A stretch of DNA of 64,000 nucleotides, taken from assembly GCA_025786725.1 (NCBI GenBank), contig JAHLTZ010000004.1, forward strand, positions 124,001 through 188,000. Direction: 5' to 3'. This DNA is from Syncephalis fuscata (lineage: Eukaryota > Zoopagomycota > Zoopagomycetes > Zoopagales > Piptocephalidaceae). This document shows, piece after piece, positions 5,753 through 56,737 of this stretch. The notes under the pieces were generated by a model that was not told the DNA's origin, ran no database searches, and saw nothing but the letters and a program-made list of their open reading frames with translations. Each line of letters begins with the position of its first letter. Position 1 is the first letter of the stretch. A program made the translations under genes and the position numbers.

Positions 5753-6127
5753 GACGACAATGGTGTCGGATTAGTTCTGAAACCGAAATGATCAATAAAT
5801 GACGACAAAACTTAAACAGGACGAAGAGGGAAGAAGTGTAAGGACAATAGTGTGTGTGAAGTCAGAGATAAGAAGTGAGACATGTTCTGTTTATGGCATA
5901 AGTTTTATATCGTCATTGTGACCACATAGTGTAATCTATGGATCCACTTGTGTTGTATTAGTGCGGTGTCACGCACTTGCCACCCAACGCGTATTTGCAT
6001 AAATAGACGCCACTTGGTCAGTGTCCAGATGTGTTCGATACCTCACTTTATTCTATATTCAAGTTGAATACTCATTGTTTATTTCCACTAGCAACTAGCA
6101 TATCAATTGCACTACCACTTTATCAAC
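5753..6127. promoter_or_regulatory. Divergent promoter region between TRS33 and the CsbD-like gene, with a TATA-like box
   Basis: The 375 bp between two divergent start codons must hold both promoters. A CATAAATA element at about 5999-6006 lies roughly 125 bp before the plus-strand ATG at 6128, a plausible TATA box for that gene. No TATA-like box was seen for TRS33. Confidence 0.4.
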
Positions 6128-6547
6128 ATGGCACACCTAGGCGACAAAATGAGCGGAAAGGTCAAGGAGAACGTTGGCTGGGCTATCGGCGACAAGGAGA
6201 TGGAGGCTCGCGGCAAGGCACAAGCAACTGAAGCCGAAACGCTACGACATGGTGGCGAGCCAAGCCGCGTTCACGGCAACATGGAATCCGCAAAAGGTGC
6301 CACCAAGGAGAATGTTGGCCAGGCCGTTGGCGACCGCGGCATGCAGGCACGTGGTGCAGCTCAGCGAACCACTGGTAATGCCGAAGCTGAAACCGCCAAG
6401 AATCTAAACTATGCTGGCGGCGCAAAAGATCGTGTGGTCGGTGGCGCTAAGGAAAATGCCGGACGTGCCATGGGCAACAGACAAATGGAAGCTGAAGGCC
6501 AAGCACGCAACACTTATGGCAACGTGCGACAAGGCATGAACCAATAA
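6128..6547 (+). CDS. CsbD-like stress protein with three internal repeats
   Basis: Single exon, 139 aa, starting at the MAHLGDKM methionine (6128). An upstream in-frame Met at 6107 is less likely because it adds an unrelated MHYHFIN stretch. The protein contains three copies of a CsbD-type repeat: GKVKENVGWAIGDKEMEARGKAQ, GATKENVGQAVGDRGMQARGAAQ and GGAKENAGRAMGNRQMEAEGQARN. It is hydrophilic and rich in Ala, Gly, Glu and Lys, like LEA/hydrophilin proteins. CsbD domains are bacterial general-stress proteins, and multi-repeat versions are common in fungi, often induced in stress or spores (family knowledge). The molecular role is not established. It has a TATA-like box upstream and no intron, unlike most neighbours. 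Confidence 0.85.
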   Translation: MAHLGDKMSGKVKENVGWAIGDKEMEARGKAQATEAETLRHGGEPSRVHGNMESAKGATKENVGQAVGDRGMQARGAAQRTTGNAEAETAKNLNYAGGAKDRVVGGAKENAGRAMGNRQMEAEGQARNTYGNVRQGMNQ

Positions 6548-8700: not shown

Positions 8701-9186
8701 TTAAAAAGTGTATTTTTCAAATTTGCCCTTTATTAAAAAGCGTTTTTATTCTAATTTCAGCATAATATTATTTGGCTATATGATAATGATAGCTTTGCTA
8801 CTATCCATATCAATCTATGCTTATAACTAATACAATATAATTGTACATGTCTTTTGTTATTAATTTACTATTTGATTAATAATTGTTGATTATTGGATGA
8901 AAATAAAACATGGTTATAGATATAGCAATTTGATTGTATATAGTTAAGGTGAAACCATAAGTTTATTACTATAAGCTTGCACAGTTGAATAGAAACAACC
9001 AGATGCAATCTTGTTGGTAACATAATGATTCCATTGATTAAAGATTGGATAAACCGGAGCATTGGCCAAAACTTGATATATAGATAGACTGGACGGCGTA
9101 GTTGTCAAATGGTCTTGTTTTCCACCGAATATATACCTAAAGTGTATTGGAATAATGGCTTAATTGCGCTACCAATGTTAATGCTC
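8701..9186. other. 3' flank of the micro-exon gene, no gene seen
   Basis: AT-rich sequence between the transposase remnant and the last exon of the minus-strand micro-exon gene; it presumably contains that gene's 3' UTR. A short stretch near 8,770-8,810 weakly resembles the repeated element at 12,317-12,785. Confidence 0.35.
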
Positions 9187-11955
9187 TTATGACCGTGGGT
9201 TCCCTGCATTTATAAATAAAGATAGTACATGGTATATAATTAATTTATAAGTTAGCAATATACAATGCCACTTACAGTCTATTAATATTAAATTGTTGGT
9301 ACACATGGTGCATAAGATGTAATTAGTAATAATTAATTAATACACAATACCACTTACAGTCTATTAATATTAAATTGTTGGTACACATGGTGCATAAGAT
9401 GTGATTAGTAATTAATTAATTAATACACAATACCACTTACCATCTATTAATATTAAGTTGTTGGTACACATGGTGCATAACATGTAATTAGCGATTAGAT
9501 ATTTAATACATAGTGTTACATACTGCCTATTATATTAAGTTGTTAGTACACATGATGCATAACATATAATTAGTAATTAATTAATTAATATACAATACCA
9601 CTTACATCCTATTGATATTAAGTTGTTGATATACGCAATGTATAATATATAATTAGCTCATGTTATATTGATATGCAACAAAACCTACTAGCTATTAATA
9701 TTAAGTTGTTAATGGATACAGTAAATAGCATGTGATTAGTGAGTAGCCAGTTAGTATAAAATATAACTTACCACCTATTAATATTAAGTTATCAATACAC
9801 ACAGTACATGATATATAATTAATGCGTAGTCAGTTAATACGCAAAACAACTTACGACCTATTAATATCAATTTGTTGATGCATATAGTAAATAGCATGTA
9901 ATTAGTACATAATCAACTAATACAAAAGTTTACATACATCCTATCAACAATATTGTTATTTATACAGTACATAATATATAATTAGTAGCTAGTTAGTTGA
10001 TATACAATACCACTTACTGCCTATTAATATTAAATAATTGGTACAGTCAGTAAATAGCATAGTTAATGTACAGTCAAGGAATATACAATACAACTTACTT
10101 CCTATTCATATTAAATAAGCAGTGCAATTAGTAAACAGCAGCTAATGCATAGTCAGTTGATATACAATATCACTTACTGCCTATTAATATTAAATAATTG
10201 GTATAATTAGTAAATAGTATAGTTAATGTATAGGCAAATGATATACAATACTACTTACATTCTATCAATATTAAATAATCGGTACCATTGGTAAATAGCA
10301 GTTAATATATAGTTAGTTAATATACAATACCACTTACGAGCTATTGATATTAAATAATTAATAAATAGCATATTTAATGTATAGTCATTTAATAACAATG
10401 TCACTTACTGACTATTAATATTAAACAATTGATACAATAGTAAATAGCATAGTTAATATATAGTTAGCTAATATACAATGTAACTTACTGCCTATTAATA
10501 TTAAATAGTTGATACAATCAGTAAATAGCATAATTAATATATAGTTAGTTAATATAAAATACCACTTACGATCTATTAATATTAAATAATTAATACAGTC
10601 AGTAAATAGCAGTTAATGTACAGTCAAGGAATATACAATACAACTTACTTCCTATTAATATTAAATAATTAATACAATCAGTAAATAGCATAGTTGATAT
10701 ATAGCTAGTTAATACACAATAAAACTTACCATCTATTGAGATTAAATAATTAATACCATTAGTAAATAGTATAGTTAATGTATAATCAGTTAATATACAA
10801 TATCACGTACACACTATCAACAATATTGTTGATTTATACAGTACATAATACATAATTAGTGGATATTTAATTAATATACAATATAACTTACTGTCTATTA
10901 ATATTAAATAATCAGTATATTAGTAAATAGCATAATTAATGTGTAGCCAACTAATATAAAATACCACTTACTGCCTATTATATTAAATAATTGATACAAT
11001 CAGTAAATAGCATAGTTAATGTATAGTCAGTTAATATACAATATCACTTACTGCCTATTATATTAAGTTATTGATACAATCAGTAAATAGCATAGTTAAT
11101 GTATATTCAGTTAGCACGCAATACAACTTACAAACTATATTATTAATTTGTTGATACACACAGTACATGGATATAATTAACGAGTAGTTAGTTTATATAC
11201 AATACAACTTACCCCCTATTATATTAAGTTATTAATATACGCAATGTATGATATATAATTATTACATAGTCAGTTAATATGCAATACAACTTACGACCTA
11301 TTAATAAGATTATTGACACGCACAATACATAATGTATAATTAGCACATAATCAGTTAATATACAATACAACTTACATCCTATTATATTAAGTTATTAATA
11401 TACGCAATGTATAATATATAATTAGCACATAATTAGTTGATACATGATACAACTTACTAACTATAACATTAAGTTGTTGATACACAATAAGTAATATATA
11501 ATTAATTTATAAGTTAGCAATATATAATATTACTTACGACCTATTAGCATTAAGTTGTTGATACACATGGTGCATGACATCTAATTAGCTAATGTTTTAT
11601 TGATATACAATATAACTTACATTCCTCTAATATTAGATTGTCGATGGATACAGTACATAACACATAATTAGTGTATGTTTTATTAATATATAATAATACT
11701 TGCCCACTATTAGTATTAAGTTGTTGATACACATAGTGCATGAATATAATTAATGAGTCATTAGCTAATATACAGTACAACTTACGATCTAATAGCATTA
11801 TTAGTTAGCAATACTATTAATAAGCAGATACTATGGCATATTTATTGTTATTGCAACATACCACGACGAACTAAGGCTGGTTTAGCATCCACGATGGCTG
11901 TACTGGCCACAATAGCCACGACAATGGTGCAAACGACGGCAATGGAAAGCTTCAT
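9187..11955 (-). CDS. Micro-exon gene for a secreted six-cysteine peptide: 34 exons, 31 of them exactly 3 nt
   Basis: Exon 1 (11862-11955) encodes a signal peptide (MKLSIAVVCTIVVAIVASTA...) ending KPALVRR plus one extra base (phase 1). Then come 32 micro-exons, each bounded by an AG and a donor. First bases: 11786, 11704, 11621 (6 nt, 11621-11626), 11538, 11458, 11376, 11295, 11213, 11132, 11052, 10972, 10892, 10811, 10730, 10649, 10570, 10489, 10409, 10338, 10259, 10178, 10099, 10018, 9938, 9855, 9772, 9689, 9606, 9524, 9441, 9358, 9276; all others are 3 nt. The last exon is 9187-9203 with TAA at 9187-9189. The spliced CDS is 210 nt, 69 aa, without internal stop. After RR, a Kex2-type site, the 38-residue mature part is Arg-rich with cysteines at positions 5, 8, 11, 22, 26 and 30. 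All 33 introns are phase 1. I do not recognise the peptide family; function is unknown (effector, antimicrobial or signalling are possibilities). Confidence 0.85.
9204..11861 (-). repeat. Array of 33 similar introns, about 81-bp period, separating micro-exons
   Basis: On the minus strand each unit reads GTAAGTTGTATTGTAT-like donor end, AT-rich middle, then TTAATATTAATAG-like acceptor. Start-to-start spacing of micro-exons is mostly 79-83 bp (one 71). Donor and acceptor ends are far better conserved between units than the three bases lying between AG and GT. This suggests tandem duplication or repeated insertion of one intron-sized unit, with separate constraint on the triplets. Variant donors are GCAAGT (before 11704), GTACGT (10811), GTATGT (9938, 9524) and GTAGGT (9689). 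Confidence 0.85.
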
Positions 11956-12138
11956 GGTGATATTGACTTGTTAAGACAAACAAAAAAAGAGATAGTAGAG
12001 TGTGGTTGGTATAGAGTGGAGAATAGTGCGTGTATAGCAAGAAGTAGAGTGTGATTGATATAAAGTGAATAGTAGTGTGTTTAGCAGAAAAAAGAGTGTG
12101 ATGATAATATCGCAGTTGGTTGTGTGTATTTTGTGGGC

Positions 12139-12146
12139 TATTTATA
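12139..12146 (-). promoter_or_regulatory. TATA-box-like element upstream of the micro-exon gene
   Basis: TATAAATA on the minus strand, about 185 bp before the ATG at 11955. It is the only good TATA match in the upstream region. A transcript starting about 30 bp downstream would have a leader of about 150 nt. Confidence 0.45.
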
Positions 12147-12316
12147 CTTATGATTATGCTGAGATGCCAGTATACTGTAACATACGAGGTATACCATCGA
12201 TGTGTAATATGAACCAATAAAATAATCCAGGTTATGGTTTGAGATGCACATGTACCAATAGATTCATGGCGTGATAGTATGCTCCCAGGCTTGATTTTAA
12301 CTTACTCAGTTTTGAT

Positions 12317-12785
12317 TTCAACCTGCCCGGTCTTTACTTTAACCTGTTAATCATTTGTACGAGTACTGTAACGGTGTTTATAATACAGTAAGTATGCGAC
12401 AATGTACATCATTCTATTTTTTTGTTACGCAGTTTAACTATTTAGTGAAAACAAATATACTGTTTGGTTTTGTAAAAACGATAATGATGTCTTTGCTACC
12501 ATTTCTACCGATCGGTCCTTAATATCTGCATGCATAAAAATAGCGCATAACCTGCCCGGTCTTTACTTCAGTTTGTCAGTCATTTACACAAATGGCATAA
12601 CAATATTAATAATTTAGTAATATGGGATAAAAATAAACACACTAGCCTGTATTTTTTGTTACACGGTTTAACTATTTGGTAAAAACAAGTATGTCGTTTA
12701 GTTTTTTTAAAAAATAATGATGTCTGCTACCATTTCTACCGATTCGGTCCTCAATATCTGCATGCATACAGAATAGCACACAACG
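12317..12785 (+). repeat. Two adjacent diverged copies of a roughly 230-bp sequence
   Basis: Both copies contain CCTGCCCGGTCTTTACTT, then TTTGTTACRCRGTTTAACTATTT, then AATGATGTCT...GCTACCATTTCTACCGAT, and end at ATATCTGCATGCATA. Copy 1 spans about 12,317-12,535 and copy 2 about 12,550-12,770, same orientation. No coding capacity is evident; origin unknown. Confidence 0.6.

Positions 12786-50627: not shown

Positions 50628-56737
<6,110 letters not shown>

Follow-up and report, generated by a model that had tools for sequence, protein, structure and literature searches.

Predicted structure of the gene on the minus strand

The window analysed here is a stretch of 64,000 nucleotides from Syncephalis fuscata, a fungus of the Zoopagomycota (assembly GCA_025786725.1, contig JAHLTZ010000004.1, positions 124,001 to 188,000 of the forward strand). 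On its minus strand, at 11955-9187, lies a gene that begins with a signal-peptide-like exon, continues with 32 micro-exons (31 of 3 nt and one of 6 nt) and closes with a last exon. Joining of these exons in silico yielded MKLSIAVVCTIVVAIVASTAIVDAKPALVRR-DLEECLRCRVCSNMYGNRITQCRSRCRARCNDYWNPRS, where MKLSIAVVCTIVVAIVASTAIVDAKPALVRR is the translation of exon 1, which ends one base into the next codon, and DLEECLRCRVCSNMYGNRITQCRSRCRARCNDYWNPRS is the joined reading that follows the signal and pro-part. An initial annotation of this DNA had proposed exon 1, the 31 exons of 3 nt, the 6-nt exon and the terminal exon, all of which held in position; the 69-residue precursor without an internal stop that it described was reproduced by the joining, and the mature part of this precursor contains six cysteines. 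We put at about 90% the probability that the locus codes for a protein and that single-codon exons encode its mature peptide in full; the splicing, its order, the secretion of the peptide and its target are what we infer.

Exon 1 (11862..11955, 94 nt; all features of the gene are on the minus strand) carries the signal-peptide-like segment and KPALVRR and ends after the first base of a codon. In most codons of the mature part, one exon contributes its last base and the following exon its first two bases. The array, made up of the 32 micro-exons and the 32 introns of 68-80 nt that precede them, occupies 9276..11861. Numbered from the 5' end, the micro-exons are 1, ATC (11786..11788); 2, TGG (11704..11706, donor GCAAGT); 3, AGGAAT (11621..11626); 4, GTC (11538..11540); 5, TTA (11458..11460); 6, GAT (11376..11378); 7, GTC (11295..11297); 8, GGG (11213..11215); 9, TTT (11132..11134); 10, GCA (11052..11054); 11, GCA (10972..10974); 12, ACA (10892..10894); 13, TGT (10811..10813, donor GTACGT); 14, ATG (10730..10732); 15, GAA (10649..10651); 16, ATC (10570..10572); 17, GCA (10489..10491); 18, TCA (10409..10411); 19, CTC (10338..10340); 20, AAT (10259..10261); 21, GCA (10178..10180); 22, GAA (10099..10101); 23, GCA (10018..10020); 24, GAT (9938..9940, donor GTATGT); 25, GTC (9855..9857); 26, GTG (9772..9774); 27, CTA (9689..9691, donor GTAGGT); 28, GAT (9606..9608); 29, GCA (9524..9526, donor GTATGT); 30, ATG (9441..9443); 31, ACT (9358..9360); and 32, ACT (9276..9278). 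The intron after micro-exon 15 is 95% like that after micro-exon 22, which is also GAA. Micro-exon 3, the only one of 6 nt, is ambiguous: chaining that allows any exon length takes GAAT behind AGAG, a possible 4-nt reading that breaks the frame, and a 6-nt exon was found again at or near this place in paralogues. The final intron, which ends at the last exon (coding part 9187..9203, closing with TAA), is 72 nt long, and its acceptor ATAAATGCAG is unlike those of the array; the same or a similar sequence is the last acceptor in paralogues too. The 3' untranslated region (9000..9186) is common to intron-less paralogues, position 9000 being the limit of the comparison only.

When positions -13 to +15 were compared over the 31 units of the window array that have a 3-nt exon, the least informative columns were those of the triplet (0.32, 0.16 and 0.08 bits), with the qualification that the splice model demands the AG and the two bases that open the donor, which are thus conserved partly by construction. 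Upstream, TATAAATAG (12138..12146), a possible TATA box, lies 191 nt 5' of the ATG in a block common to three of four compared intron-less paralogues. An imperfect 49-bp tandem repeat occupies 11994-12106 in the likely 5' leader, and AGTAAAGACCGGGCAGGTT occurs twice within 12300-12600, about 230 bp apart, upstream of the possible TATA box.

Unit order and reading phase of the arrays

Splice-site weights were taken from the window array alone, and units were then chained in 28 further loci without regard to stops. These loci, 28 of an estimated 80 arrays and all from one species, were picked mostly by the closeness of their exon 1 to that of the window and by unit matches. Only exon lengths divisible by three and of at most 12 nt were admitted, because the first chaining runs had ended early or had taken off-length exons. 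Of the resulting 29 loci, 22 were kept; L055 and L074 were dropped for having fewer than three units, and L058, L059, L063, L072 and L077 as close copies (L077 differs partly from L071). The kept arrays are still partly related, as in L051 and L054 or L052 and L053, and L051 runs off its stretch. Together they hold 693 micro-exons, of which 656 are of 3 nt, 34 of 6 nt and 3 of 9 nt, and each array comprises between 13 and 49; the longest, L057, has 49 consecutive 3-nt exons. Both L056 and its relative L063 are 13-unit arrays that read DPCDPFHPCTS, followed by an in-phase stop.

In the phase set by exon 1 (phase 1), the 711 codons of the 22 arrays included 2 stops; when unit order was shuffled 5000 times, the mean was 35.2 stops and the lowest count 18. 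Cysteine codons in the same phase numbered 124, against a mean of 60.2 and a maximum of 80, so that none of the 5000 shuffles came as high. For phase 2, 59 stops were counted versus 56.7 in the shuffles. An earlier round of chaining without long introns had given the same picture of stops and cysteines. Among 3-nt units, 174 followed a unit with T as its last base, and one of these began with AA, AG or GA, compared with 108 of the 424 that followed other units (Fisher P 4e-17). A loose six-cysteine motif, shaped after the family had been seen, was present in 10 of 20 long arrays, compared with a shuffle mean of 0.03 and a maximum of 2. For the window alone, 20000 unit shuffles included 1867 that were stop-free, 258 with as many cysteines and 10 with this same post hoc motif.

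The spacing of the splice sites was also seen without a chaining model: over the 22 arrays, AATAG was followed by GTAAGT within 20 nt in 515 cases, of which 510 had a gap of exactly 3 nt, and a further 95 AATAG sequences had no GTAAGT within that distance. Array donors were GTAAGT in 530 of 610 cases and acceptors AATAG in 508 of 610, and the introns were short and uniform, with a median of 78 nt. The unit-order counts show that the triplets, in the predicted joining, behave as codons in the exon-1 phase.

Relatives and divergence of the arrays

An ordinary open frame with a cysteine-rich tail was found in 6 of 30 fetched exon-1 loci (for example L047, ADLESPECEECLNICFSQLNSSLHCYSSCRPKCAP). Searching the genome (28.95 Mb in 299 contigs) with the exon-1 peptide gave at least 150 scored matches out of 325 candidates, and by hand count 39 of the 150 listed matches run stop-free beyond exon 1 (query residue 45 or later); these look like intron-less genes. 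When four intron-less paralogues (L043, L046, L047 and L049) were compared with the window gene by BLAST, the match in all of them extended to a point within 2 nt of the exon-1 end and resumed 12-20 nt inside the last exon with nothing reported between; upstream of the ATG it covered about 300 nt in L046, L047 and L049 and only about 100 nt in L043. An alignment of five ordinary members, including the public model P0004, with seven spliced peptides contained six invariant cysteines beyond the signal part, the seven having been chosen as open and six-cysteine readings, so that the alignment serves as illustration and the unit-shuffle counts as the test. A tree of the upstream region and exon 1 (35 rows, 29 array and 6 intron-less) mixed intron-less and divided genes, with four changes between the two states, one of which is forced by well-supported branches.

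The strict unit pattern ATTAATAGNNNGTAAGTN{1,5}TATT gave 935 exact matches genome-wide and the reversed pattern none. Seventeen arrays with 24 or more units, among them one near-duplicate pair, hold 11.6 strict matches each, and on this basis a large family of about 80 arrays is expected in the genome, an extrapolation from unit matches in which some short contigs may be duplicates. Of 66 GCA-bearing units, 55 lie at most 5 kb downstream, on the same strand, of an exon-1 match among the 150 listed, a zone that makes up at most 1.3% of the stranded genome. Two of the remaining 11 precede such a match and one stands beside one on the other strand; that only 150 exon-1 matches were listed perhaps explains these 11.

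All 13 database protein relatives found were S. fuscata models. Three of these, P0006, P0009 and P0012, have much the same signal segment ahead of mature parts that are quite unlike one another, which would be the picture if exon 1 served as a secretion cassette for reuse. No contiguous copies of the window or L066 mature peptide turned up, an empty answer that proves nothing for a search of this kind. Pfam gave no consistent family among 12 members, only seven weak ones that each matched a single member (best E 0.00025, a scorpion short-toxin family). A profile search of PDB sequences likewise gave no recognisable relation to alpha-hairpinins (best E 0.56), and of its 11 weak matches we take eight, by their folds, to be helical-hairpin cysteine peptides of that kind. 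The structure model of P0004, built on an alignment of three sequences, had a mean pLDDT of 59.9, too weak for a fold search, with helices of the mature part at 36-47, 53-58 and 65-68. These are weak hints that the peptide may adopt a helical hairpin.

Between related arrays, which are paralogues of one another (8 pairs, 181 matched units), the three triplet bases differed at 0.45, 0.40 and 0.59, whereas the adjoining splice-site bases, four at the end of the acceptor and six at the start of the donor, differed at 0.00-0.06, a low divergence that is partly by construction, since AG and GT or GC, but not the other six splice bases, are required by the model. Introns differed at 0.01-0.22 over 13 pairs, and exon 1 at no more than 0.06 per codon position in 11 pairs and at up to 0.26 in L075/L066 and L075/L073. 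Among the changed codons of the eight pairs, 4 changes were synonymous and 115 were not. Site counting over 215 codons in 9 pairs gave pN 0.478 and pS 0.476, with 0.132 for the introns. Plain positive selection by single-base changes is not supported, because pN equals pS. Intron divergence was 0.179 beside changed triplets (n=166) versus 0.052 beside unchanged ones (n=81), a difference not reached in any of 10000 permutations; that changed triplets sit in more diverged introns points to replacement of units or to patchy conversion.

Within arrays, intron likeness falls with distance, from 0.765 for adjacent introns to 0.714 beyond 15 units (ten arrays), and blocks of units recur, for example units 13-15 and 24-26 of L069. 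Identity of at least 93% was found in 142 of 12082 within-array intron pairs, related arrays included; the same triplet preceded both members in 32 of these 142 pairs and followed them in 31, and for intron pairs of any identity in ten arrays the same triplet preceded both in 240 of 5939. We read these patterns as suggesting that units have been duplicated and exchanged with fast triplet change on top, or that introns have been copied without their codons. Insertion of introns into an intron-less gene would explain the common framework and the different triplets beside near-identical introns, but it leaves the regular 3-nt, one-phase spacing unexplained; unit duplication would fit the spacing better, and neither is proven.

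One intron each of L051, L056, L058, L060, L062 and L077 contains an insertion of about 400 nt, behind which the units continue. The insertion sits early in its intron, a similar start was seen in L055 and L074, and its far end, where printed, is followed by a repeat of the intron's own start (GTGATATTGTATATTA or similar). With its tRNA-like end, the insertion resembles a SINE in reverse.

Elsewhere in the window, frames at 51209-55223 on the minus strand resemble, by inspection, the largest subunit of RNA polymerase II, with repeats at the end. A small repetitive open reading frame lies at 6092-6547 on the plus strand and resembles the CsbD-like stress proteins. No tRNA genes or Rfam families were found in the window.

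Interpretation and comparison with known systems

That the locus is a secreted peptide gene of single-triplet exons, as the initial annotation had proposed, gains support from unit order and cysteine content in the exon-1 phase, from the paralogues and from the divergence of the triplets. In the mechanism that we propose, exon 1 would supply the signal-like peptide and a short pro-segment that closes with Arg-Arg, and each unit would offer a single triplet flanked by an acceptor of the AATAG type and a donor of the GTAAGT type. Strong donors and short, uniform introns are as expected for intron definition, and recognition would have to rest on the intron side because the exon bases that adjoin the donor are variable. 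The spliceosome would thus remove introns of about 78 nt by intron definition, most likely serially from the 5' end, stepwise removal being simplest because a neighbouring acceptor and donor would be too close for simultaneous use. As each intron leaves, its triplet would join the growing exon and the next donor, 3 bases on, would come into use, a ratchet like that of recursive splicing with three bases retained per step. The precursor is likely to be cut after Arg-Arg, a known cleavage motif. The product would be a secreted six-cysteine peptide, secretion being judged from the look of exon 1 on inspection. A fungal host is the natural guess for its target, and use on such a host appears probable from the lifestyle of the genus, from exon 1 and from the hypervariability of the mature part. 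The congener Syncephalis pseudoplumigaleata is listed among obligate mycoparasites, and a title cited in the same source calls Syncephalis ubiquitous mycoparasites (PMC6784888). Nearly all micro-exons share one phase and have lengths divisible by three, so that the gain, loss, exchange or skipping of units would leave the frame intact, which suits rapid change of the mature peptide.

A number of observations pull the other way. The frame is kept only if ambiguous exons are read as multiples of three, as the chaining rule obliged: with any length allowed, exons of 2, 4 or 10 nt, one or two per locus, entered the reading of 11 of 21 loci, the window included, and stops then appeared in several. 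An in-phase stop remains in two of the 22 kept arrays (L056 and L061), L065 and L076 are open only when defective units are skipped, and L055 and L074 are unreadable. Phase 0 is also stop-poor (5 of 733 codons), and unit shuffling is unable to test that phase, so that the choice of phase 1 rests on exon 1, unit order and cysteines and not on stop scarcity alone. Whole units reading TAA, TAG or TGA numbered 1 in 656 three-nt units where column composition would give 13.1; TAA and TGA units may be avoided since they create GTAAGT or GTGAGT over the acceptor. Cysteine codons were mildly raised in phase 2 as well (26 versus 17.5, a number reached by 55 of 5000 shuffles). The spliced mature parts and the 13 public models have at most four residues in a row in common, and the tails of P0003 and P0010 (KLYCIL and KLYCAL) resemble, by inspection, translated array introns. 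To these are added the equality of pN and pS and the physical difficulty that a 3-nt exon leaves little room for binding at both of its splice sites at once.

The splicing and the peptide are predictions from genome sequence, a circumstance that also favours an account in which the arrays once encoded peptides and are now mostly silent or decaying, the working peptides being made by intron-less paralogues. The stops, off-size units or insertions in some arrays and the many paralogues that look intron-less by the hand count given above would fit such a history, but decay is hard to reconcile with 2 stops in 711 codons over 22 arrays and with donors that are still GTAAGT in 530 of 610 cases. Moreover, the splice-site bases are nearly fixed between related arrays while the triplets vary, and units continue behind the insertion in all six insertion-bearing loci; we regard this account as improbable. 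Less credible still is a satellite-like non-coding tandem repeat that forms one long intron, with exon 1 spliced straight to the last exon. The tandem structure would agree with it, and omission of the array would keep the frame if the units are multiples of three, but the unit order shuns stops and makes cysteine codons in the exon-1 phase, the six cysteines are those of the intron-less paralogues, and divergence peaks in the triplets. On unit order and cysteine content in that phase, a non-coding repeat was rejected.

A further proposal is compatible with a gene of single-codon exons: the array might be a combinatorial library that gives many products through frame-safe skipping of micro-exons, as has been proposed for schistosome micro-exon genes (MEGs). 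The micro-exons as read are symmetric and of a single phase, and the skipping of defective units in L065 and L076 gives an open, cysteine-rich reading. Against this, the six-cysteine framework requires most units in a fixed order, and skipping is something we infer from the genome; such a library seems to us doubtful. With somewhat more confidence, albeit tentatively and at less than even odds, we suggest a new kind of gene, the coding text of which is itself a tandem repeat of intron plus codon. Its codon cassettes would undergo duplication and exchange, and perhaps skipping in RNA, with the frame preserved; the genome, possibly together with the spliceosome, would then act as a diversifier of the secreted effector peptides of a mycoparasite.

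If transcripts confirm single-codon splicing, these genes would mark a new extreme of gene division: in dozens of them, introns would be about as numerous as codons across an entire peptide. They would also join intron multiplication to effector evolution. They would bear on models of intron versus exon definition, for which arrays such as L057, where as many as 49 exons of 3 nt follow one another, offer a natural system, and the splicing of consecutive tiny exons becomes a directly testable question. The origin of tandem intron arrays is testable as well, as intron-less and divided paralogues coexist in one genome. Given that none of the 13 public models found matches a spliced product, we also suggest that annotation can miss a whole family of secreted peptides.

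We know of no counterpart to an architecture of tandem repeats of intron plus codon. Among the titles and beginnings of abstracts listed for fungal micro-exons, for tiny or single-codon exons and for Syncephalis, a literature that covered few subscription papers and no bioRxiv preprints, none described such genes. Recursive splicing is similar in that a donor is regenerated at or beside the junction of the previous step; its known ratchet points keep 0 nt, whereas each step here would keep 3 nt. Precursors of cone-snail toxins share with the arrays a layout of conserved signal peptide, hypervariable mature part and fixed cysteines, but they are not known to be encoded by single-codon exons. 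Exons of the aphid bicycle genes are longer than one codon. The likeness there, compared by description, lies in effector-like proteins, many small internal exons and rapid change; a bicycle gene has an average of about 17 exons, and almost every internal exon begins with codon position 2 (PMC9168663). The micro-exons of the arrays also start at codon position 2, exon 1 being 94 or 97 nt long, which we regard as a shared habit and not as kinship. The 1-nt exon of Arabidopsis APC11 and the 3-nt exons described in PMC4674806 show that splicing of exons of 1-3 nt is possible, but they occur singly and sit in ordinary genes, whereas each kept array holds 13 to 49 micro-exons. Introner-like elements of fungi, as outlined in PMC4457414, are many similar spliceosomal introns in one genome; unlike them, the similar introns here are stacked in tandem, three bases apart.

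Schistosome MEGs come closest, as portrayed in PMC5825161: symmetric exons of 6-36 bp make up about 80% of their coding region. Their signal peptide has a likely counterpart in exon 1, and a coding part of mostly short symmetric exons and fast-changing secreted proteins of a parasite would be common to both systems. By description only, the arrays differ in that 656 of 693 exons are of 3 nt, below the range of 6-36 bp, and in that their introns are a single family of similar sequences of about 78 nt in tandem. Function places the S. fuscata family with the micro-exon genes, and its architecture stands apart; on a stricter view, one could call it an extreme variant of the micro-exon gene.

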